Origin: Thalassobacillus devorans MSP14
GTDB lineage: Bacteria; Bacillota; Bacilli; Bacillales; Halobacillaceae
Assembly (NCBI RefSeq): GCF_000496835.1
Contig: NZ_KI543237.1
Location: 722,641-786,640, forward strand
DNA: 64,000 bases
Direction: 5' to 3'
Numbering within the stretch: position 1 is the first letter of the stretch; the number at the start of each line of letters is the position of its first letter. The position numbers and the translations under genes were made by a program. The notes below the pieces were generated by a model. It saw only the letters and a list, made by a program, of their open reading frames with translations, ran no database searches and was not told the DNA's origin. This document shows, piece by piece, positions 1 through 63,628 of the stretch.

Positions 1-446
1 GGGATCTCGCCTAGCCCCTTCTCCCGCGGGAGTCTCCCCGTTTCCCTTCCCATCCAGCCAGTTTTGTATTAAACGGACCCTTCACAAAGAGAAAGAATGT
101 AGCTGAAACCTTCATCCTGAGGCATTTTACAAAGGATGTAGAGGCATTAAAATCTTCAATCATAGGACAGTTTTCTTCGGCTGATTTCGAGAACTTCCCA
201 CGGCAAGGGGGCGTAGGGAAACGGTGAGACTCCTCGAAAATGCTACGCATTTCCTTCGTGCGTGGGTTAAGTCAAGATGAAAATTCAAAGTCCTGTGGGA
301 GCTGAGTGATAGATGAGGCCCCGCAAGGCGAAGCCTGAGGAGACTCAGCACACGCCCACGGAAAGCGAATCGTTTCCTGAAGCCCCTCAACTCCAACAAT
401 ATCTCGAAATCAAGTCTTCCATAATCCGGCCAAATAGTTGAATAAA
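1..446 (-). repeat. Large dispersed repeat, copy R1 (truncated by window edge)
   Basis: This is the first of six related noncoding repeats and it runs off the left edge. It lies in the opposite orientation to copy R2. Read on the minus strand it starts near 446 with a terminal stretch containing GGCCGGATTATGGAAGACTT, followed by the arm with the CTTTCCGTGGGCGTG core. The centre shared with R2 and R3 follows, then the second arm, which is cut by the window edge. It carries a 60-bp insertion at 235-294 that R5 also has. No credible ORF or transposase is present; the short ORFs here are low complexity and not conserved between copies. Confidence 0.85.
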
Positions 447-541: not shown

Positions 542-1687
542 TTATAACGTAAATGGATCCGGCTTATCTTCGCGTTGCTTGAAGAAATAGCGGATCGCTT
601 CGGCAATACGGCTGGATGCCTGTCCATCTCCATACGGGTTTGAAGCTTTAGCCATCGCTTCATGCGCCTGTTCATCGGACAACAATTCATTGGCAAGTTC
701 AAAGATGTGGGCTTCTTCTGTTCCGGCCAACTTAAGCGTTCCGGCCTCAATTCCTTCCGGACGTTCGGTTGTATCCCGGAGGACTAATACCGGTACGCCA
801 AGAGAAGGGGCTTCTTCCTGTACACCGCCTGAATCGGTCAAGATCAAGTGGGCGCGTGAGGCGAAATTATGAAAATCAATAACACCAAGCGGATCAATCA
901 GTTGAATGCGGTCATCGTTTCCTAAGATACGTCCCGCTGTTTCTTGTACTACAGGGTTTAAATGAACGGGATAGACCACCTGGACATCGTCATGGGTTTC
1001 GACTAATCGCTTAATAGCACGGAACATCTGCTCCATGTTATTTCCAAGATTTTCACGGCGGTGAGCTGTCATCAGTACAAGACGGCGGTCACCAAGATTG
1101 TCCAGCACCTCACTTGAATAATTATCATCAACGGTTGTTTTCAAAGCATCAATTGCTGTATTACCCGTTACAAAGATTTGCTCATTTGGTTTGTTTTCAG
1201 CGAGCAGATTATCCCGCGATTTATTAGTGGGAGCAAAATGAAGATCAGCCATGACACCAGTCAGCTGACGGTTCATTTCTTCCGGGAATGGCGAGTACTT
1301 ATTCCACGTCCTTAGCCCCGCCTCAACGTGGCCGACAGGAATCTGGTTATAATAAGCAGCCAAAGAAGCAGCAAATGTCGTGGTGGTATCACCATGAACC
1401 AGGATCATATCGGGCTTTGTCTCTTTTATCACTTCGTCCAGGCCTTCCATGGCCCGCGATGTAATCTGTGTCAACGTCTGGCGTTGTTTCATGATATCCA
1501 GATCATAATCTGGTGTGATATCAAATATCTCCAGCACCTGGTCAAGCATTTCCCGATGCTGTGCCGTAACCGTAACGATTGGATCAAATTGATCTGTGCG
1601 TTTCTTTAATTCCAGAACCAACGGAGCCATTTTGATTGCTTCCGGGCGGGTCCCGAAAATCGTCATTACTTTAATCGGATTGGTCAT
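542..1687 (-). CDS. wecB: UDP-N-acetylglucosamine 2-epimerase (non-hydrolysing)
   Basis: Cytoplasmic enzyme that interconverts UDP-GlcNAc and UDP-ManNAc, feeding teichoic acid linkage units or other surface polymers (MnaA in B. subtilis). The 381-residue protein is of normal family length. Visible motifs are GTRPEAIKMAPL near the N-terminus, HGDTTTTFAA, HVEAGLRT and TDSGGVQEE. The start at 1687 is chosen because AGAGGTG lies about 7 bases upstream; the longer frame to 1750 would overlap upp and has no ribosome site. It follows upp by about 25 bases, so the two are probably co-transcribed, and a strong terminator follows. Confidence 0.95.
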   Translation of the reverse strand: MTNPIKVMTIFGTRPEAIKMAPLVLELKKRTDQFDPIVTVTAQHREMLDQVLEIFDITPDYDLDIMKQRQTLTQITSRAMEGLDEVIKETKPDMILVHGDTTTTFAASLAAYYNQIPVGHVEAGLRTWNKYSPFPEEMNRQLTGVMADLHFAPTNKSRDNLLAENKPNEQIFVTGNTAIDALKTTVDDNYSSEVLDNLGDRRLVLMTAHRRENLGNNMEQMFRAIKRLVETHDDVQVVYPVHLNPVVQETAGRILGNDDRIQLIDPLGVIDFHNFASRAHLILTDSGGVQEEAPSLGVPVLVLRDTTERPEGIEAGTLKLAGTEEAHIFELANELLSDEQAHEAMAKASNPYGDGQASSRIAEAIRYFFKQREDKPDPFTL

Positions 1688-8685: not shown

Positions 8686-9182
8686 ATTCAATAATAGGGC
8701 CGAATTGTAGAAGACTTGATTTCGAGATATTGTTAGAGTTGAGGGGCTCCGGGAACGATTCGCTTTCCGTGGGCGTGTGCTGAGTCTCCTCAGGCTTCGC
8801 CTTCCGGGGCCTCATCTATCACTCTGCTCCCACAGGAGTCTCACCGTTCCCCTACGCCCCTAGCCATGGGAAGTTCTCGAAACCAGCCTACGAAAACTGC
8901 CCTATGGTTGAAGACTTTAGTGTCTTTACATCCTTTGTAAAATGCCTCAAGATGAAGGTTTCAGCTACATTTTTTCTCTTTTTGAAGGGTCCGTTTAGTA
9001 CAAAACTGGCTGGATGGGAAGGGAAACGGCGAGACTCCCGCGGGAGAAGGGGCTAGGCGAGATTCCACAGGGCTTTAGCCCGAGGAAGCTTGCCAGGTCC
9101 CCCGCAGGAAAGCGAGTTGTTTCCCAAGCCATCCCATTACTGTCATGGTAAAGGACCTAACTATCTTGAAACTGAGTCTTCC
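8686..9182 (+). repeat. Large dispersed repeat, copy R2
   Basis: Complete copy of about 497 bp between spoIIR and prmC. It begins ATTCAATAATAGGGCCGAAT and ends CTTGAAACTGAGTCTTCC. The ends form an imperfect inverted repeat (GAAGACTTGATTTCGAGATA against GAAGACTCAGTTTCAAGATA). The two inverted arms lie at about 8745-8855 and 9018-9128. The centre is shared with R1 and R3 (subfamily A). An 18-bp palindrome at 9181-9198 abuts the right end. The gap between spoIIR and prmC contains no gene. Confidence 0.88.
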
Positions 9183-13071: not shown

Positions 13072-13170
13072 GTTCTTCCACTCCTTTTTGCCCTGAATCC
13101 TTTGGAAACAGAGTTATTGTAAGAGCCGTATCAGGCAGAACCTGCCCTGTCTCGAAACTCACATAGAATG

Positions 13171-38873: not shown

Positions 38874-39326
38874 ATTGAATTACAGGGCCGAAAAGTCGAA
38901 GACTTGATTTCGAGATATTAATGGAGTTTAGGGGCTTCGGGACACGATTCGCTTTCCGTGGGCGTGTGCTGAGTCTCCTCAGGCTTCGCCTTGCGGGGCC
39001 TCATCTATCACTCAGCTCCCACAGGAGTCTCACCGTTTCCCTACGCCCCTTGTCATAGAAAGACTTTGAAATCACCTTTATGGAATATCGGCAATGATAA
39101 TAAGAAACAAGACTTTGGCCCCACTATATCTTTTATAATGGCGTCTAAATGAAGATTTCAGCTACATTCTTTCTTCTTTTGAAGGGGCCGTTCAGTATAA
39201 AAATAGCTGAATGGGAAGGGAAACGGTGAGGCTCCCGTGGGAGAAGGGGATAGGCGAGTCGTTTTCCCAGTCCCCCCAATTCCATCATGGTAACGGACCC
39301 AACTTTCTTGAAACTGAGCCTTCAGT
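38874..39326 (+). repeat. Large dispersed repeat, copy R3
   Basis: About 453 bp between speB and ywiB, same orientation and subfamily as R2. The left terminal stretch contains GGGCCGAAAAGTCGAAGACTTG, and the right end reads CTTGAAACTGAGCCTTCAG. The left arm is complete and nearly identical to that of R2. The right arm lacks about 55 bp, consistent with deletion between two GCGAG direct repeats that are both present in R2. The gap contains no gene. Confidence 0.87.
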
Positions 39327-44171: not shown

Positions 44172-44698
44172 TTCTAAAACCCGTACCGTAAAGTCGAAGA
44201 CTTGATTTCAAGAAAATTTGGGTCAGTCGCCGAGTCATGAGTAAGGGCGGCTTGGGAAACGATTCGCTTTCCTGTGGGGGAGCTGGCAAGCCTCCTCAGA
44301 CTTCGTCTTCCGGGGTCTCGCCTAGATCCTTCTCCCACGGGAGTCTCACCGTTTCCCCGCCACCCTATCCGTTTTTTGATGAATGAACCCTGCCTTGTAA
44401 GAAGATACCTTCCACATTTACTGAATGATAAGGCTCAATGATCCAGGAAGCAAGCGCTCTTTGGAGCTGTTACTATGTTTGAATGATTCTGCCTATCGAT
44501 GTTTCCGTTTCTGTTATAAACGTAAGGAGGTCCGGGAAATTGCGAGACTCCTATGGGATTAAAGTACATGGTGAGATCCCGCAGGGCTTTAGCCCGAGGA
44601 AGCTCACCGTACTCCCATGGAAAGCGAGTGATTTCACGGACCTGCAGAGATTCTCATCCGTTACGGAAACAGTTTCTCTCGAAACTGAGTCTTAACTT
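44172..44698 (+). repeat. Large dispersed repeat, copy R4 (abuts a broken ywhB)
   Basis: About 527 bp, subfamily B with R5 and R6. The left end contains GTCGAAGACTTGATTTCAAG and the right end CTCGAAACTGAGTCTTAACTT. Left arm at about 44250-44360, right arm at about 44525-44645. The right end runs directly into codon 1 of the remaining ywhB reading frame, with an in-frame stop just before it. The gap from ywhD to here contains no other gene. Confidence 0.87.
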
Positions 44699-46211: not shown

Positions 46212-46238
46212 GTTTTAGTCAAGTGATATCGTGGTAAC
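46212..46238 (+). promoter_or_regulatory. Possible second sigma-B-like promoter
   Basis: GTTTTA (46212-46217), 15 bases and GGTAAC (46233-46238), about 35 bases before the first KGG gene. Weaker than the one at 45905. Confidence 0.35.
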
Positions 46239-46272
46239 TTAAACAACAACTACTCAAAAGGAGGTTTTTCAA

Positions 46273-46488
46273 TTGGCTAACAACAATAAGAACAACAACC
46301 GTAAAATGAGTTATGAAGAAGCAGGTAAAAAGGGTGGCGAGAAAGTAAGTAACAAGTACAGTCAGGAACATTTTGAGGAAATCGGTAAAAAAGGCGGAGA
46401 AAAAGTAAGCGATAAGTACAGCAAACAGCACTTCGAAGAGATTGGCAAAAAAGGTGGAAGAAATTCCAACTCTAACAACAATTCTTAA
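46273..46488 (+). CDS. GsiB-like general stress protein, three KGG repeats
   Basis: 71 residues, TTG start, AAAGGAGG 8 bases upstream. It has three units of about 20 residues of the type EEIGKKGGEKVSNKYSQEHF, the KGG (LEA group 1-like) repeat seen in B. subtilis GsiB. It lacks hydrophobic segments and cysteines. Expected to be a soluble hydrophilin. It is a shorter paralogue of the next gene; the two share their ribosome site and first 13 codons almost base for base. Confidence 0.9.
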   Translation: MANNNKNNNRKMSYEEAGKKGGEKVSNKYSQEHFEEIGKKGGEKVSDKYSKQHFEEIGKKGGRNSNSNNNS

Positions 46489-46573
46489 GAGTGAATAGTC
46501 TCTATAGAATTTTTGAAGGTTAGTACTCCCCATTATTGAGAACATCACTATATTATCTAAGGAGGTTTTTCAA

Positions 46574-46963
46574 TTGGCTAACAACAATAAGAACAACAAT
46601 CGTAAAATGAGTTATGAACAGGCTGGACAAAAGGGCGGCGAGAAGACCAGTAACAAGTACAGCCAGGATCACTTTGAGGAAATCGGCCAAAAAGGCGGAG
46701 AAAAAGTAAGCGATAAGTATAGTCAGGAACACTTCGAAGAGATTGGCCAAAAAGGCGGAGAAAAGACCAGCAATAAGTACAGCCAGGATCACTTTGAGGA
46801 AATTGGTAAAAAAGGTGGCGAAACCACCAGCCAAAATAAAGATAAAGATTTTTATCAGGAAATCGGTAAAAAAGGCGGAGAAAAAACAAGCGAGAAGCAT
46901 GGAGAGGAATTCTACGAAGACATCGGTAAAAAAGGCGGTAGAAATTCCAGCTCCAATCGGTAA
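46574..46963 (+). CDS. GsiB-like general stress protein, six KGG repeats
   Basis: 129 residues, TTG start after AAGGAGG. Six tandem KGG units of about 20 residues (for example FEEIGQKGGEKTSNKYSQDH), so the coding DNA is a 60-bp tandem repeat that may expand or contract. Same family as the preceding gene. A terminator follows. Probably induced by general stress. Confidence 0.92.
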   Translation: MANNNKNNNRKMSYEQAGQKGGEKTSNKYSQDHFEEIGQKGGEKVSDKYSQEHFEEIGQKGGEKTSNKYSQDHFEEIGKKGGETTSQNKDKDFYQEIGKKGGEKTSEKHGEEFYEDIGKKGGRNSSSNR

Positions 46964-46985
46964 ATAACTTCTCACCTGATCATAC

Positions 46986-47022
46986 AAGAGGGCTGTCCTG
47001 TAGCGAGGGCAGTCCTTTTTTG
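46986..47022 (+). terminator. Terminator after the KGG genes
   Basis: AGGGCTGTCC pairs with GGGCAGTCCT (two wobble pairs) and is followed by TTTTTT. Confidence 0.8.
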
Positions 47023-57197: not shown

Positions 57198-57929
57198 ATG
57201 AAACAATGGTTCGGTAGTGGTACTGATCAACCGTTCGACATGTTCGGCGTAAGTCATGTCATCATGCTGGCCATCTATTTGGCAGGCCTGGCATTGATAC
57301 TCCTTGGGTATAAAAAGCTGAAAAAAGATCAGACAATCTATCAATGGATACGATGGTTTTTATTCGCTTTGCTGATTATTTCCGAAATCACTTACCAAAC
57401 CTGGGCAGTAGTTAACGGCGTATGGAGCAGTAAAGATTACCTGCCGTTACATCTGTGCGGTATTGCATCTTTAGTGGCTGCCACTGCGCTTTGGAAACCA
57501 AATCATACGTTGATTAAAATCACCTATTTCATCGCCGTTATTCCTGCATTGATGGCTTTAATGACACCAGACCTCCCCCATGACTACCAGCACTACCGTT
57601 ACTGGAAATTCTTCATCCATCATATAGGGATCTCCTGGTCCGGGGTACTCCTGGCACTCGTTCATCCCGTAATCATCACCTGGAAAACTACCATGAAGGC
57701 TTATGGACTCCTGGTAATTTACGCCATTCTGATCGGCTTTGTCAATCAAGTGATCGGTTCGAATTATTTATATTTATCCAGGACGCCTGGCAAGGGAACT
57801 CCCCTTGATTTATTAGGTGATGGTTTCTGGTATTATATCAATCTTGGAATTCTCGCTTTTGCTTCTTTTTGGCTGCTTTATTTTATCTATCAACTTTTCA
57901 CAAGATGCAAACCTTCCTCCTCTCTATAA
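57198..57929 (+). CDS. ywaF: YwaF family membrane protein (TIGR02206)
   Basis: 243 residues, about seven membrane helices. Recognised from QWFGSGTDQPFDMFGVSHVI and the DYLPLHLCGIASLVAA segment. Function unknown. It is divergent from the small Cys-rich gene with 72 bases between. Repeat R5 begins 35 bases after its stop. Confidence 0.9.
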   Translation: MKQWFGSGTDQPFDMFGVSHVIMLAIYLAGLALILLGYKKLKKDQTIYQWIRWFLFALLIISEITYQTWAVVNGVWSSKDYLPLHLCGIASLVAATALWKPNHTLIKITYFIAVIPALMALMTPDLPHDYQHYRYWKFFIHHIGISWSGVLLALVHPVIITWKTTMKAYGLLVIYAILIGFVNQVIGSNYLYLSRTPGKGTPLDLLGDGFWYYINLGILAFASFWLLYFIYQLFTRCKPSSSL

Positions 57930-57963
57930 CGAATCCAGGAAATATCTACTTGACTGAAAGTGC

Positions 57964-58646
57964 TTATTCAACAATATAGCCGACTCGTGAAAGACTCAGT
58001 TTCAAGGTTCTTTACCATAAAAGCGTTAGGGGTGGCTTGGAAACTACTCGCTTTCCAGCTTCATCGCCTAGACACTCGCGACATAAGCAGTCCATCAACG
58101 GGAAGAAAGAACACTTCCCTTTTGCTGTTCTGCTTATGCGTGTCGTGTCTCCCAAGGCGATTACACAATTATTTCTTTCCTGCGGGGGACCTGGCGAGCT
58201 TCCTCGGGCTATCGCCCTGTGGGATCTCGCCTAACTCCTTCTCCCGCGGGAGTCTCGCAGTTTCCCACCCACCCCATCCGAAGGATGGGAGAAACGAACC
58301 CCTGCCATAAATTAAAATGTCTTCCACAAATCATATAGAACTATCATGCAGGTAATAAGCACGTTTCATGAATAACTCTCCCTATGGTTGAAAGAGGCTT
58401 AGATGCTTCCGTACTTCTCAAAAACGCAAGGAGGGCCGGGAAATTGCGAGACTCCTCGAAAATGCTACGCATTTTCTTCGTGCGGTGTTTATTCAAGAAG
58501 CTTATTCAAAGTCCTATGGGAGGATAGGACATGGTGAGATCCCGCAAGGCGAAGCCTGAGGAAGCTCACCACATGCCCACGGAAAGCGATCCGTTTTCCC
58601 AGCCGCCATAATCGCTACCTGAAATCTTGAAACTGAGTCTTCAGGA
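57964..58646 (+). repeat. Large dispersed repeat, copy R5 with two nested insertions
   Basis: The longest copy, about 683 bp, subfamily B. Its terminal inverted repeats are the best preserved: AAGACTCAGTTTCAAG occurs exactly at both ends in opposite orientation. The left arm (58045-58265) is split by a 124-bp hairpin insertion at 58057-58180. The right arm carries a 59-bp insertion at 58457-58515 that R1 also has. It fills the ywaF-ctaE gap and contains no gene. Confidence 0.88.
58057..58180. mobile_element. Nested hairpin insertion (MITE-like) inside R5
   Basis: Absent from R6 at the same place. It is flanked by CTTTCC on both sides (58051-58056 and 58175-58180), as expected for a 6-bp target duplication. 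Its ends fold back: TCGCCTAGACAC and CATAAGCAG on the left pair with the matching parts near 58130-58160. An inner GGGAAG/CTTCCC stem lies at 58100-58119. Too short to encode a protein. Confidence 0.65.
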
Positions 58647-58702
58647 AATAATTGTAGATTTAATAATGAGATTTAACAGAGACGATGGGTAAAATGAGAG
58701 AT

Positions 58703-58737
58703 AAAAAGCCCAAAGCTGCAGTAGAGCTTCGGGCTTG
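58703..58737 (-). terminator. Terminator after ctaE
   Basis: AAGCCC(G)AAGCT-type arms at 58705-58716 and 58725-58736 pair, with TTTTTATC on the minus strand. It ends the oxidase operon. Confidence 0.85.
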
Positions 58738-58743
58738 TTGCTG

Positions 58744-59319
58744 TCAGAACAAGTATGGCGTGTAGACGATAATAACGATCAGCACCCAAATGATATCGAC
58801 AAAGTGCCAATAGTAATTAAAAATCCTATGTTTTTCAGCAAAAAGGTTGAAGGGAAGCAGTTTGCGTTGAATAAGAAGAACTATCATCCAGCCAAGTCCA
58901 AAGAGTACGTGGGAAGCGTGGAGACCCACCAGTACAAAATAGGAGGCTAGAAAGTTGTTTTTCGCGACTGTATGTCCTTCAGATATAAACTTATAGAATT
59001 CGTCCACTTCAAAATACATGAACGTCGCTCCAAAGGTAAATGTAATCAACAGTCCTGTCAGTATCATCCTGGCGTTCTTTCGATCCAGCCCTTTCTCCGC
59101 TATCATCAATGTCCCACTGCTGGATAGAAGAAAAACCGATGCCAGGACGACAGTGTGGAGTTTGAAAAGTTCACCAGGATAAAGCCCCATTTGGGGAGGT
59201 GTATAAATAATATAAGTCGCAAACAGCGTTGAAAACATGATCGCTTCCACAAATAAATAAATGAAAAACCCCATACGTTTATCGCCATATAAATCTTTGG
59301 ACATTGTTTTACTGCTCAT
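58744..59319 (-). CDS. ctaE: Cytochrome oxidase subunit III
   Basis: 191 residues, five membrane helices, without the two N-terminal helices of long subunit III. The FFIYLFVEAIMFSTLFATYI segment and LVGLHASHVLFGLGWM carry the conserved Glu and His. The start at 59319 follows GGAGG and overlaps the ctaD stop; the extension to 59379 is rejected. No subunit IV gene follows; the operon ends at a terminator. Confidence 0.9.
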   Translation of the reverse strand: MSSKTMSKDLYGDKRMGFFIYLFVEAIMFSTLFATYIIYTPPQMGLYPGELFKLHTVVLASVFLLSSSGTLMIAEKGLDRKNARMILTGLLITFTFGATFMYFEVDEFYKFISEGHTVAKNNFLASYFVLVGLHASHVLFGLGWMIVLLIQRKLLPFNLFAEKHRIFNYYWHFVDIIWVLIVIIVYTPYLF

Positions 59320-61237
59320 TGTCCATTTCCTCCCTTTCATAAGCGGGCTTCCGTTCATCATTGAATGCCCGAATGACAAAAGAAGCTAATGCTGCAGCTC
59401 CGCCAAGTATTTGCATCCATATCCATCCATAGATGAACCCGAAACTCATTATGGTCAGCGCCACAGAAAGAAACATCGGCTGCACGGTTTTGACAGAGAC
59501 CGGAGATGCACGATGATTCTCTGTATGAGGCAGTTCTTTCTTTTCTAGTTTCGCCCACCATAAAGGGTCACGCCGGGATATTACCGGCATTTTTTCAAAC
59601 GGATGCTCAGGAGATGGAGACGGAACGGACCACTCCAGTGTCCTACCATCCCACGGGTCAGCACCTGCGTTCTCTTCTTTCTTACGGTGTGTTTTATACA
59701 CGTTCCAAAGAACGATCAGCATACTTGCCCCCATCATGAATGCCCCGATGGAACTGATAAAGTTGTATACGAACACGCCGTCTTCCCAGGTATAATCATA
59801 GACACGGCGAGGCATTCCGTTTAACCCCGCAAGATGCTGCGGGAAGAATGTCAGGTGGAAACCGATCAAGAACAACCAGAAGTGCCATTTACCCAGCTTA
59901 TCATCCAGCATTTTTCCAGTGATCTTGGGATACCAGTAATAGATGCCAGCGAAAGATCCCAGTACGGTTGAACCTATGATGACATAATGGAAATGGGCGA
60001 CCACAAAATAGGTATCGTGGTACTGCATATCTGCTGCGGCAGATGCAAGCATGACACCAGTCACCCCTCCCATGACGAAGGTCGGGATAAAACCGAGCGC
60101 AAAAAGCATCGGAGTTTGAATCCTGATGACACCCTTCCTCATCGTGAATAACCAGTTAAACACTTTGATGCCAGTGGGGATGGCGATCATCATTGTCGTT
60201 ATCGCGAAGAATGTGTTGGCAAACGGTCCTAGACCTACAGTGAACATATGATGGGCCCATACCATCAAGCCTAACAATCCAATTAAAGCTAATGCGGCAA
60301 CCATGGAGGTATATCCAAATACATTTTTTCGAGAAAAAGCAGAAATGATATCAGAAAATATCCCGAACGCAGGAAGCGCAAGAATATAAACTTCCGGATG
60401 ACCGAAGATCCAGAATAAATGCTGCCAATAGACAGGGTGACCTAACTCTCCCATAAAAAACTGGGAACCGAATTGACGATCGAATTGAAGAAGTAATAAT
60501 GCAATCGCCAATACTGGAAATGCAACGAGAATCAAGAAGGATGTAATCAAGCTAGCCCATGGAAACAGCGGCATCCTCGTCAACTTTAGACCAGGTGCCC
60601 GGAGCCGCAGTATCGTAACAAGCATATTGATGGCAGCAAAAATCGTCCCTAACCCGGAAACCTGGAGACCGAGTATGTAGTAATTATTATTCGGTCCAGC
60701 CGTAAACGTTGAAGTGGACAATGGCGCATAAGCTGTCCACCCTGCATTTGGAGCAGCATTGAAAAAGAAAGCTGCAAAAAAAATCATTCCACCGGTAACA
60801 AACAGATAAACGGAAACTAAGTTCAAATATGGAAAAGCTAAATCATTCGCCCCTATCTGCAAGGGTACCGCCACATTCATTAAACCAATCAACAGAGGTG
60901 TGGCAACGAAAAATATCATCATCGTTCCATGAGTTGTAAATATTTCATTATATTTATCGCCTTGAAAGACCCAAAACTGGTTTTCAGGAGTGATCAGCTG
61001 AAGCCGGATGAACAAGGCATCTACACCGGCTCTGAAAAAGAATAAGATGGAAAAAATGATATAGACTGTACCGATCTTTCTATGATGAGTGCTCGTAGCA
61101 TAGTCCCAAATGACCGGCCAGGCCCTTTTTTTAGTTAGCCAATATAATACAAGCGGCCCTGTGATAATCATCAGCACCCATGCAGCTATGACGTCCGTGG
61201 GTAATAAGATCAGTTTACCAAATAGGTTGATTTCCAT
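59309..61237 (-). CDS. ctaD: Cytochrome oxidase subunit I (aa3-type)
   Basis: Heme-copper oxygen reductase core, 642 residues. Heme a ligand in TTHGTMMIFF, CuB ligand and cross-linked Tyr in FGHPEVYILALP (also carrying the D-channel Glu, so A1 type), CuB pair in VWAHHMFTVGLG, and heme ligands in FVVAHFHYVIIG. The long C-terminal part has two extra hydrophobic segments. It could be a second, alternative oxidase rather than the main ctaCDEF set; that is inference from the missing neighbours. Confidence 0.94.
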   Translation of the reverse strand: MEINLFGKLILLPTDVIAAWVLMIITGPLVLYWLTKKRAWPVIWDYATSTHHRKIGTVYIIFSILFFFRAGVDALFIRLQLITPENQFWVFQGDKYNEIFTTHGTMMIFFVATPLLIGLMNVAVPLQIGANDLAFPYLNLVSVYLFVTGGMIFFAAFFFNAAPNAGWTAYAPLSTSTFTAGPNNNYYILGLQVSGLGTIFAAINMLVTILRLRAPGLKLTRMPLFPWASLITSFLILVAFPVLAIALLLLQFDRQFGSQFFMGELGHPVYWQHLFWIFGHPEVYILALPAFGIFSDIISAFSRKNVFGYTSMVAALALIGLLGLMVWAHHMFTVGLGPFANTFFAITTMMIAIPTGIKVFNWLFTMRKGVIRIQTPMLFALGFIPTFVMGGVTGVMLASAAADMQYHDTYFVVAHFHYVIIGSTVLGSFAGIYYWYPKITGKMLDDKLGKWHFWLFLIGFHLTFFPQHLAGLNGMPRRVYDYTWEDGVFVYNFISSIGAFMMGASMLIVLWNVYKTHRKKEENAGADPWDGRTLEWSVPSPSPEHPFEKMPVISRRDPLWWAKLEKKELPHTENHRASPVSVKTVQPMFLSVALTIMSFGFIYGWIWMQILGGAAALASFVIRAFNDERKPAYEREEMDNEQ

Positions 61238-61265
61238 GGTTTCACCCTTTTCTCTGTTAGTGTCA

Positions 61266-61949
61266 TTATTTCTTTGACAGCCAAGTCTGAAATTCAGCTT
61301 GTTTGATTACTTTTGTTTCGAACCTCATATCAGCATGAAGCGTTCCACAATATTCCGCACATTTCCCCTGATAGGTGCCTGTTTCTTCCGGGGTAACCTT
61401 CAGTCTTGTTTCTTCACCAGGTAATACATCAATTTTTCCTGCTAGTTTTGGCACCCAAAAAGAATGGATCACATCTTTTGAGGTTAAGTGGAAAATAACT
61501 TCCCGATCTTTCGGTAAAACTAATGTTTTGTGGGTTTTTTCACCGTTCTCATACTCAAAAGTCCACCTGAATTGCTCTCCCGTAACATTGACATGGAGGG
61601 CGTTATCATCTGAACTTGCTCCAATATAGGAGACATCATACGTAATCATCACAGTAGGGACCGCCAGTCCAATCAGGAGGATAATAGGAAATACAGTCCA
61701 GATGATTTCCAGTGTCCTGTTCCCTTCTTCATGTTTTGGAATATCATGACGATTTTTTTCTGTTTCCCTGTATTTCACTGTAAAAGTAATAAAAAGAAGC
61801 GCTACCACTAATACGACGAACATCATGATGCCAAAACTTAAGTAAATTAAAAAGGCCTGATCAGAAGCTGTCTGGCTTTTCGGATCAAGCACACGCAGAT
61901 TGCACCCAGAAAGGATGAGCAAAATCGGTATCATTGCAAGTTTTTTCAT
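61266..61949 (-). CDS. ctaC: Cytochrome oxidase subunit II (CuA, lipoprotein)
   Basis: 227 residues from the ATG at 61949. Lipoprotein signal with lipobox LSGC, two membrane helices, then the extracellular CuA domain with HSFWVP, KCAEYCGTLHADM (two Cys, His, Met). The cytochrome c domain of caa3-type subunit II is absent, so electrons must come from a separate cytochrome c or directly from quinol; CuA favours the former. First gene of ctaC-ctaD-ctaE. The ribosome site is weak. Confidence 0.92.
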   Translation of the reverse strand: MKKLAMIPILLILSGCNLRVLDPKSQTASDQAFLIYLSFGIMMFVVLVVALLFITFTVKYRETEKNRHDIPKHEEGNRTLEIIWTVFPIILLIGLAVPTVMITYDVSYIGASSDDNALHVNVTGEQFRWTFEYENGEKTHKTLVLPKDREVIFHLTSKDVIHSFWVPKLAGKIDVLPGEETRLKVTPEETGTYQGKCAEYCGTLHADMRFETKVIKQAEFQTWLSKK

Positions 61950-62065
61950 AGCTCCACGCAACCTTTACCAATAAAATTTTAAAAACGTTATTAACCCTTT
62001 AACCTCTCCATAAAGTTATTAAACCTTTGGATTTCTGAAACGTTATTGGATATTTTCACAAGAAT
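61950..62065. other. Upstream region of the oxidase operon
   Basis: AT-rich stretch between the ctaC start and repeat R6. It must hold the operon promoter, but I see no confident sigma-A site or operator. Confidence 0.4.
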
Positions 62066-62572
62066 CTTATTCAACAAAATGGCCGGATTATGTAAGACTT
62101 GGTTTCAAGATAAGGGTTCTTTATCATAAAAGCGTCAGGGGTGGTTTGGAAACTACTCGCTTTCCTGCGGGGGACCTGGCGAGCTTCCTCGGGCTATCGC
62201 CCTGTGGGATCTCGCCTATCTCCTTCTCCCGCGGGAGTCTCGCAGTTTCCCTACCACCCCATCCGAAGGATGGGAGAAACGAACCCCTGCCATACATGAA
62301 GATGTCTTCCAAATTCACCGCCAAACAAGGCCTCTTTGTACCTATTAGTATGGTTGGATGACTCTGCCTGCCAATGTTTTCGTTTCTCTTATAGACGTAA
62401 GGAGGGCCGGGAAATTGCGAGACTCCAATGGGAGGATAGGACATGGTGAGATCCCGCAAGGCGGAGCCTGAGGAAGCTCACCGTCCGCCCATGGAAAGCG
62501 AGTGATTTCCCGGACCTCCAAACGCTTATCGCCATAACGGAAACAGTTTCTCTCGAAACTGAGTCTTCAGGA
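62066..62572 (+). repeat. Large dispersed repeat, copy R6
   Basis: About 507 bp, subfamily B, the cleanest copy. Left terminal stretch CTTATTCAACAAAATGGCCG, then AAGACTTGGTTTCAAGATA; right end CTCGAAACTGAGTCTTCAG. Left arm 62147-62260 and right arm 62401-62519 are inverted copies, similar at roughly three of four positions by eye, around a centre of about 140 bases. Same orientation as R5, so the two bracket the oxidase operon as direct repeats. Confidence 0.88.
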
Positions 62573-62773
62573 ATAGGGAGCTTATCTGTAAATTCAAATC
62601 GGAGGTTCAAAAGAGCCAAAACTTTTATCTTATTTCGAAATATGGGGAATTACGGATGTAATTCCAATAATATATTTTCAGAAGATAGCTTGTCATGATT
62701 ATTTAAATTTACTTAATTACAGTGACAATATATAATGATAGTAATTTATTGTTAAAAGGGACTGAATTGTTTT
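62573..62773. other. AT-rich upstream region of the RsbR-like gene
   Basis: Very AT-rich, with TATATAATG near 62740 on the plus strand as a possible -10 region. No other feature seen. Confidence 0.4.
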
Positions 62774-63628
62774 ATGGTGCAAAAAGAACACGTGGTATTC
62801 TTCCAAAAGAAAATATCTGAAAACGTTGACGAATTGACTGAAAGAATATTCACTTTATCTGAACATAGGTACCCGCAAGAACTAGCAAAGTTAACCGAAG
62901 AAGACTTAAAAGATAATAAAAGAGTCGTCCATGAACTATTTGAAACAATTGCTAAAACAATGCTATATGTAGAGAAATCTAATGAAATAGCCGCTCAATG
63001 GGGAGAGGAAGTCGGAAAAACAGCTGTCCGCCAGGGTGGTTCTTTAAGTGATGCGTTGGAGAGAATCGGAATATACAAAGAAGTGCTTTGGACATTTATC
63101 GAGGAAACAGCAAGGGAAACCGATTATAACTTCACCCACATCATTGAAGTGGTGACACGTACGGATGATATCTTCAACCATATCGTGCATGGGTTCAGTC
63201 TTAGTTTCGCTCGGGAAGAAGAGCGGATTCTTAGAGATTATGAAGAAAAATACCTTAAGCTTTCTACTCCAATTGTCCCAATCAAAGACTCCGCCGCTAT
63301 CCTGCCAATCATCGGAGAGATTGATCAGAAGCGGGCAGATGTCCTGATGGATGAGACATTGAAAGAAGTGAGCAATTGGAATATCGACTGGCTGATCATC
63401 GATTTATCCGGTGTATATGATGTGAACAACTCTTTTATGAGCCATTTGTATCGTCTGCTTGATTCCCTGACTCTATTAGGGATTACACCGCTCCTTACCG
63501 GTATGAGACCTGACCTCAGCATGCAGGCAACCAAACTTGGGTTATTTCAAACGAGCAAAAACCGCATTACCACCTGCTCTTCGTTGAAACAAGCGATTGA
63601 ATTGTTAGACAAGAAAAACATCTCATAA
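62774..63628 (+). CDS. RsbR-like stressosome protein (STAS domain)
   Basis: 284 residues. The N-terminal part (1-155) is a helical sensor domain unlike the globin fold of RsbRA, closer to RsbRD-type. The C-terminal STAS domain begins near STPIVPIKDSAAILP. IIDLSGVYDVNNSFMSH aligns with the phosphorylated site of RsbR and RsbS; Ser220 is the likely acceptor, with Asn in place of the usual preceding Asp. LLTGMRPDLS matches the second conserved segment. A role in sigma-B control is inference. Confidence 0.88.
   Translation: MVQKEHVVFFQKKISENVDELTERIFTLSEHRYPQELAKLTEEDLKDNKRVVHELFETIAKTMLYVEKSNEIAAQWGEEVGKTAVRQGGSLSDALERIGIYKEVLWTFIEETARETDYNFTHIIEVVTRTDDIFNHIVHGFSLSFAREEERILRDYEEKYLKLSTPIVPIKDSAAILPIIGEIDQKRADVLMDETLKEVSNWNIDWLIIDLSGVYDVNNSFMSHLYRLLDSLTLLGITPLLTGMRPDLSMQATKLGLFQTSKNRITTCSSLKQAIELLDKKNIS

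Follow-up and report, generated by a model that had tools for sequence, protein, structure and literature searches.

What does selection maintain in a bacterial repeat whose two arms mirror each other? The stretch of the Thalassobacillus devorans MSP14 genome analysed here (64,000 nt, hereafter the window) holds copies R1 to R6 of such a repeat. A preliminary description of R6, at the right-hand side of the window, held that its inverted arms fold into one long imperfect stem, and that conserved pairing across copies would point to selection on RNA or DNA structure. Here, we show that each arm of R6 is a unit of ~112 nt that folds on its own and whose own stems covary, and that what selection appears to keep is the folding of each hairpin, not the long duplex between the hairpins.

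R6 as an inserted element, and its copies in the genome

R6 had been placed at 62147-62519. The mirrored repeat is real, but this span covers only the inner part of an element that occupies 62029-62617. Its boundaries come from a search with window 61400-63500 as query against four genomes of the same genus (G001 to G004). In G001, the two flank matches abut with an 8-bp overlap (C18:114782-114789) and precisely omit window 62029-62617; when the window flanks are joined, they align to the G001 sequence, where AAACCTTT occurs once. Because the joined flanks reproduce the G001 sequence, R6 is a 589-bp insertion with an 8-bp target-site duplication, of which the left copy is AAACCTTT (62021-62028) and the right copy, 7/8 identical to it, is AAAACTTT (62618-62625). 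The R6 flanks are only ~153 nt apart in G003 and G004, which leaves no room for the element, and G002 matches the left flank only.

The element starts with a diverged terminal inverted repeat of B-type with the consensus GGCTCTGTTAAACGTTGTTGTTGATTTTTCAT (62029-62060, plus strand) and finishes with one of A-type, GGCTCTTTTGAACCTCCGATTTGAATTTACAG on the minus strand (62586-62617). Terminal inverted repeats are a feature of the family; R6's own ends have diverged. Between them lie two structured units, which are the two arms of the preliminary description. The left unit (62143-62255) has its sense strand on minus and scores 91.0 bits with our covariance model R1 (E 1.8e-24); the right unit (62405-62515) has its sense strand on plus and scores 104.8 bits (E 1.5e-28), these E-values being rough by the tool's own statement. 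Both units face outward, their 5' ends separated by a central spacer of 149 nt (62256-62404), and on the plus strand the left arm reaches only 18.8 bits. Several details reported earlier are borne out by the sequence: the words ACTCGCTTTCC, GAGCTTCCTC, GGGATCTC and GGAGTCTCGCA of the left arm are found again, in unchanged order, when the right arm is reverse-complemented, the palindrome CTCCCGCGGGAG is present in the left arm, a loop of ~140 nt separates the arms, and the mirroring over ~100 bp corresponds to a mutual match of 77% over ~103 nt.

R6 has a cytochrome oxidase subunit II gene on one side and a STAS-domain gene on the other, and these two genes are divergently transcribed. The sole open reading frame of at least 80 aa within it (62124-62459, minus strand, 111 aa) has no Pfam match, and there is no transposase gene inside the element. 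With the target-site duplication and the empty site in a relative, we are highly confident of the anatomy and mobility of R6 as a composite miniature transposable element (MITE).

The other copies in the window were delimited with the same model. R2 (8746-9129) is composed of units at 8746-8856 (minus) and 9017-9129 (plus), and R4 (44250-44641) of units at 44250-44361 (minus) and 44530-44641 (plus, 115.9 bits), so that the mirrored design previously reported for these two copies is correct. R5 (58159-58589) is mirrored as well, with units at 58159-58270 (minus) and 58508-58589 (plus, partial). Copy R1 (1-380), at the window edge, retains units at 1-50 (minus, cut off) and 272-380 (plus), and R3 is a single full unit (38935-39045, minus). 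The left unit of R5 contains an extra hairpin insertion of ~115 nt (58060-58174), with a 9-bp stretch of the unit imperfectly repeated on either side, and its right unit an extra insertion of ~56 nt (58456-58511). Similar insertions within units can be seen by eye in other copies of the same genome, in a Halobacillus faecis locus (L216) and in a locus of another genome (L131, G052).

The whole T. devorans MSP14 genome contains at least 150 units: all 150 scored candidates match the model, and as these are the scored part of 676 first-look candidates, the copy number is a lower bound. They are arranged as 56 neighbouring pairs, 99-447 nt apart and divergent without exception, plus 38 singles. 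A-type or B-type end sequence (tip plus subterminal part), scoring above every reversed-flank control, is recognised on both sides of 52 of the 56 two-unit copies, and copies with both ends always combine one A and one B (29 AB, 23 BA). The alignment comes within 5 nt of the element tip in 62 of 112 flanks. With a strict, tip-requiring setting, both tips are found in 5 of the 56 copies, one in 23 and none in 28, with no hits in reversed flanks. Among the 18 copies with both tips at a looser setting, only 7 have target duplications that agree at 7 or 8 of 8 positions, even if a one-base offset is tolerated. The ends of many own-genome copies are decayed. One A-type end (L061, near C1:995882) is adjoined by a group II intron reverse transcriptase/maturase (RVT_1, GIIM; 127-1269 of that locus), which suggests that an intron was inserted into or beside a copy.

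Folding within each arm and between the arms

Thermodynamics alone would favour the long duplex. The region 62110-62545 folds at -220.1 kcal/mol, whereas its shuffles average -144.3 and none of 100 is as low (z -11.85). Across 55 of the 56 own-genome elements (one longer than 520 nt was left out), free folding gives a mean of -176.3 kcal/mol against -140.0 with local pairs only, that is, ~36 kcal/mol in favour of the long duplex on average. As free folding prefers it, the long duplex may indeed form in a full transcript, and the consistently inverted arrangement of the own-genome pairs (56 of 56, no tandem pair) would suit a functional ~100-bp double-stranded RNA stem or DNA cruciform. This duplex is however not what is conserved. 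In the 56 own-genome elements, the similarity of a left arm to its own right arm (66.0%, 0.660) is lower than to the right arms of other elements (72.7%, 0.727). Where close siblings exist (41 elements), the own-minus-sibling difference averages -0.0005 (17 positive, 23 negative, 1 zero). Conserved pairing between the arms, as had been proposed, is therefore not observed, and the same figures rule out that conversion within an element keeps its arms alike.

A direct comparison of the two sets of pairs leads to the same outcome. Cells in which both local pairs are kept while at least one long-range pair is lost number 587, against 47 for the opposite case; in a MAFFT alignment that was not fitted to any structure the numbers are 463 and 57. 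In that structure-free alignment, local pairing amounts to 0.888 and 0.912 (89-91%) and long-range pairing to 0.775 (77.5%). Covariation between the arms had been named beforehand as the check on the long stem, and it came out negative: there is no arm-to-arm coevolution, and the local pairs covary instead. In addition, many copies in other genomes have a single unit nearby, and in the stretches read only one unit was seen in 17 of the 18 unit-bearing IS1182 loci discussed below. Together, these observations make the long duplex as the selected structure scarcely credible, notwithstanding the very stable fold of R6. Head-to-head copies of a hairpin can evidently give the appearance of a long duplex without selection maintaining one.

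For the local structure we turned to units outside the genome of origin. A core-pattern search found at least 115 stretches in named genomes, and the 80 among the matches listed served as loci; their genera we take to be Bacillaceae in the wide sense. From 84 core matches, 74 units with a recognisable tail and 49 non-redundant units were obtained, 44 of which entered alignment A1 (L176, L196, L208, L237 and L239 were left out). The core pattern fixes GAGACTCC, GGGA and GG-GAGA-CCCGCA, and the tail filter demands a near match to CGGAAAGCGA, so that the constancy of these columns in A1 is in part a selection artefact. RNAalifold on the 49 non-redundant units yielded only a partial consensus (-14.2 kcal/mol), and for this reason the unit structure was drawn from one sequence (L232) and then tested. 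A1 was aligned with MAFFT without reference to structure and, like the structure-free alignment of the arms, was not fitted to the model, whereas alignments A2 and A3 were; shuffled and slid versions served as controls.

In A1, 85.4% of cells are paired, compared to 69.6% after shuffling and 38-43% after sliding. Doubly changed cells number 314 against 111 ± 8 (shuffled) and 49-89 (slid), and the covariation score reaches 0.382, with 0.137 and 0.065-0.097 in the respective controls. Pairs in which both partners vary number 28 of 43, barely more than in the shuffles (25.2; 12 of 500 as high), and the outer stem is the weakest part (71.5% paired). The 112 paired units of the own genome, in an alignment fitted to the covariance model, behave similarly: both partners vary in 26 of 42 pairs (22.0 in shuffles, none of 500 reaching this number), there are 638 doubly changed cells against 225 ± 22 in shuffles, and the covariation score of 0.379 compares with 0.164 after shuffling and at most 0.065 after sliding. 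These shuffles ignore the relatedness of the units, a point in favour of an inert repeat, in which the complementarity would merely reflect shared descent of two copies and recent amplification without function. The elements are mobile repeats, and homology of the two units does explain the complementarity between the arms. Nevertheless, within the units the doubly changed cells and covariation scores lie far above both kinds of control, in other genera as well as in the own genome, and we consider an inert repeat very improbable. The earlier expectation of selection on RNA or DNA structure thus appears to hold for the stems within each arm and fails for pairing between the arms.

A further argument against inertness is an excess of G-U over A-C on the sense strand. 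In 76 non-redundant units aligned with the model, G-U outnumbers A-C by 64 to 19 in the inner helices and by 76 to 37 in the outer stem, and G-U-rich rows outnumber A-C-rich rows by 52 to 7. Without model fitting, 73 non-redundant units give 61 to 27 in the inner helices and 36 to 8 in rows (p 2.5e-5), and the units of the own genome give 269 to 94. The sense fold is also more stable than the antisense fold in 88 of 114 units. Because G-U exceeds A-C two- to threefold on the sense strand, selection probably works on one single strand, which is likely RNA. The excess in itself could reflect RNA, single-stranded DNA or strand-biased mutation, while a cruciform or gene conversion would favour neither strand. 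Overall, we have good confidence that selection acts on the single-stranded sense strand of each unit.

Could such a strand serve to insulate the element? A read-through transcript would then leave the element via a sense hairpin that blocks, stabilises or processes the RNA, making insertions less harmful. A divergent pair does offer one sense unit as exit hairpin in either direction, and copies are found in tandem, convergent and divergent gene contexts. However, by sequence inspection no U-tract is present 3' of the R6 units, and solitary units show no orientation bias relative to neighbouring genes (16 sense, 10 antisense, p 0.33; 36 units with usable neighbouring ORFs, out of 114). We regard insulation as unlikely.

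IS1595-type ends and the distribution of the unit

The mobility of the small elements can be traced through their ends. In a scan of 61 genomes, the own genome and relatives, the end consensus GGCTCTGTTAAA-N7-GTTGATTT (at most 1 mismatch) occurs in 30 genomes and in 16 of 30 genera, with no match to the reversed pattern. Exact 8-bp duplications border 6 of the 9 elements read (149-640 bp) that are bounded by these ends at either side, and the finding of such duplications together with IS1595-type ends led us to drop REP/BIME palindromes as a candidate. A search for IS1595-family transposases (PF12762) gave matches in 28 of 150 genomes, the curated cut-off being exceeded in 23 of the 28. Among 30 IS1595 transposase loci examined, some of which are weak matches, the gene is enclosed by the same ends in inward orientation at 8 (at most 4 substitutions; none in reversed sequence), with an exact 8-bp duplication in 7 of these 8, and three transposases from these loci belong to the IS1595 family in NCBIfam (212-214 bits). 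The small elements thus share their ends and AT-rich 8-bp duplications with autonomous IS1595 elements of relatives, as IS1595-family MITEs do.

They differ from such MITEs in their core, as the hairpin unit is absent from the autonomous IS1595 loci: none of the 30 has a credible unit, one locus giving two hits of E 0.008. Derivation of the core from the autonomous element is hence not seen, for the unit as the part of the core that was looked for. With no credible unit at these loci, the route of the unit into IS1595-type elements is a guess. The search for an IS1595 transposase in the own genome gave no match, which rules out an autonomous IS1595 element there and means that the mobiliser is not seen today. 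A locus considered as a possible autonomous element, L119, contains a 149-bp MITE and a 331-aa ORF, not a transposase; by its translation, the ORF appears to begin like a P-loop protein.

The unit itself also occurs beyond these elements. Of 299 genomes of the class, counting the own genome, 78 have a match to the covariance model, as do 25 of 119 genera, also in families outside the own order; with 12 candidates scored per genome, copy numbers in this survey are lower bounds. IS1595-type ends on both sides (at most 4 substitutions) accompany only 10 of 84 named units (46 end hits in those loci against 7 in reversed sequence), and units elsewhere have different flanks. Neighbouring pairs outside the own genome are divergent in 33 of 36 cases, 3 being tandem and none convergent. 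At Peribacillus frigoritolerans locus L196 (4655-5133), three same-strand units follow each other in tandem with a 185-nt period, breaking the divergent rule.

One of the other flanks is the end TTTGTCTACAGTCTGA. All 23 exact sites of this end, in three genomes, have a unit nearby, and a fourth genome has no sites; in G164, pairs with TTTGTCTACAGTCTGA-type ends are divergent in 5 of 5 cases. By eye, 11 of the 23 sites have a terminator-like stem-loop on both flanks. At L430, L435, L436, L438, L439, L441, L442, L444, L445, L447 and L451 the whole stem-loop stands on both flanks, as if duplicated on insertion, and at L456 and L464, in tsr24-bearing genomes, a like stem-loop was seen by eye on both flanks of tsr24-type copies. 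The listed ORFs near the units of L440 and L432 include, by eye, none that is transposase-like.

IS1182 transposases, tsr24 and the probable origin of the unit

Where does the unit come from, if not from autonomous IS1595 elements? PF13751 matches occur in 9 of 12 genomes searched, and we examined 19 IS1182-type loci among the 24 listed PF13751 matches whose open frame spans 410 aa or more. A unit is located upstream of the intact transposase frame, on the opposite strand, in 18 of these 19 loci (9 in G311, 1 in G184 and 8 in G181); the stretch fetched for the remaining one, L480, has no unit. As they are near-identical copies from three genomes, the 18 loci represent two or three lineages and not independent cases. 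The gap between unit and start codon, readable in 17 loci, measures 46 nt in G311 and G184 and 95-96 nt in G181, whereas at L502 the open frame extends past the usual start and the gap was not read. Two of the unit-adjoining transposases are IS1182-family members (NCBIfam NF033551, 452 and 490 bits). In the IS1182 elements read, the unit is at one end, adjoining the element end and with its 3' side towards it. The one locus with more than a single unit, L477 (G184), has extra divergent units at 888-1000 (minus) and 1087-1199 (plus), past the far end of the transposase gene.

The unit is also linked to a catalogued small RNA, tsr24 (RF02577), but is wider in distribution and otherwise placed than in the open-access papers searched. 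It has the same GAGACUCC / GGAAAGCGA loop and nested stems, and local tsr24 matches place the unit at model positions 123-210. Units of other genomes score 39.2, 34.9, 34.9 and 27.6 bits with the Rfam model, all below threshold, while the covariance model for the unit hits all 14 tsr24 loci tested. Above its gathering score (50 bits), tsr24 is found in 4 of 9 genomes searched, all of one family (f56), where matches with E of 0.001 or lower number 74, 50, 13 and 6; matches in one genome reach 112.5 bits, and the best match of the own genome 37.2 bits, under the gathering score, so that the own-genome units do not qualify as tsr24 members by this measure. In contrast to the high-copy family described here, the Rfam entry consists of one S. 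aureus small RNA; tsr1 to tsr39 are reported as sRNAs of S. aureus USA300 (PMC7392542). In the window, Rfam at gathering scores finds no tsr24 and only an L31-Firmicutes ribosomal protein leader, elsewhere in the window (13081-13113, minus, 37.3 bits), and at E up to 5 the region 57900-62700 has no tsr24 and one snoRNA hit (E 1.4); these searches rule out a known RNA family as the identity of the window's units. Four full-length sub-threshold tsr24 matches of the own genome (C3:230907-231184, C1:1504649-1504929, C1:946212-946461 and C1:1258718-1258979) are absent from the 150 listed hits of the unit model and possibly represent a further element type.

The arrangement at the IS1182 loci resembles that of insertion-sequence antisense RNAs. 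RNA-OUT of IS10 is an antisense RNA that limits transposase translation. As in that system and in Asr9/Ssr9, the antisense RNAs of the insertion sequence ISPpu9 (PMC8450116), an RNA-like strand lies opposite the transposase, and in three G181 copies read the tsr24 match spans the unit, the transposase ribosome-binding site and the ATG. A position opposite the 5' end of a transposase gene, as expected of a candidate antisense RNA, is thus found in IS1182 elements and not for the window's copy. The unit, as a putative antisense RNA, differs from these RNAs in being a conserved hairpin that persists in transposase-less elements. An origin of the unit beside an IS1182 transposase seems probable to us; that antisense control of the transposase is its function is a more tentative proposal, for which we would give somewhat less than even credence.

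A different role for the same hairpin would be that of a DNA device, a single-strand hairpin at the element end that is recognised or processed by an IS1182-type transposase. It would fit the location of the unit in the IS1182-type elements read, where it adjoins the element end, and the strand asymmetry is equally compatible with single-stranded DNA. IS1272, an IS1182-family member, is reported to act on stem-loops (PMC5678879), and elements ended by TTTGTCTACAGTCTGA likewise land at terminator-like stem-loops; IS1272 is, however, reported to replace its target stem-loop, whereas the TTTGTCTACAGTCTGA elements have a stem-loop on both flanks at the 11 sites mentioned above. On the other hand, only one end of the autonomous elements read has a unit, and some small elements have just a single unit, so the hairpin is not required at both ends; its structure is still constrained in elements with IS1595-type ends, such as those of the window, which set them apart from the IS1182 family; and the homologue is catalogued as an RNA. 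We therefore hold a DNA device to be rather unlikely, if a little less so than insulation.

On balance, we favour, with some reserve, R6 as a composite MITE whose two hairpins are a structured antisense RNA from IS1182-type elements, amplified within IS1595-type elements. In this scheme, the unit would be the structured body of a putative outward-transcribed RNA, antisense to the transposase leader, which might limit transposase translation and hence transposition in the manner of RNA-OUT. Small elements would have taken the unit from IS1182-type elements and would then have been amplified by an IS1595-type transposase. The two-unit form may have arisen from two IS1182-type ends joined back to back; since each such end has the 3' side of the unit towards the element end, the joined pair would face outward. 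The constraint that persists in transposase-less IS1595-type elements could stem from action in trans, from a DNA hairpin at the element end or from read-through insulation. A broader version is conceivable, although we think it doubtful: one structured RNA module, born by IS1182 transposases, captured by unrelated elements across Bacilli (IS1595-type MITEs among others) and spreading as a mobile regulatory RNA with up to >100 copies per genome, perhaps acting in trans on transposition or on adjoining genes, with tsr24 as one copy.

A small RNA catalogued in S. aureus, the IS1182 transposases and MITEs belonging to a different insertion-sequence family are connected by one covarying hairpin, and a repeat that seemed inert becomes a case that can be tested. 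If the antisense role is true, IS1182 elements would gain a control RNA, and MITEs would prove able to spread regulatory RNA between transposon families. In the open-access papers searched, we found neither the sequence strings of the unit nor the name tsr24, and nothing on covariation in Bacillaceae MITEs; the main text of a MITE review does not mention Bacillus, IS1595, IS1182 or Firmicutes (PMC10969869). Bcr1, Bhal-1, Efa-1 and Sta-1 may be comparable, as they are described as multi-copy stem-loop families in bacteria of the same class (PMC2267715). Finally, the window contains another repeat cluster, at 46219-46987, where direct repeats of ~223 nt with spacings of 301, 60 and 120 lie in ORFs without Pfam match.
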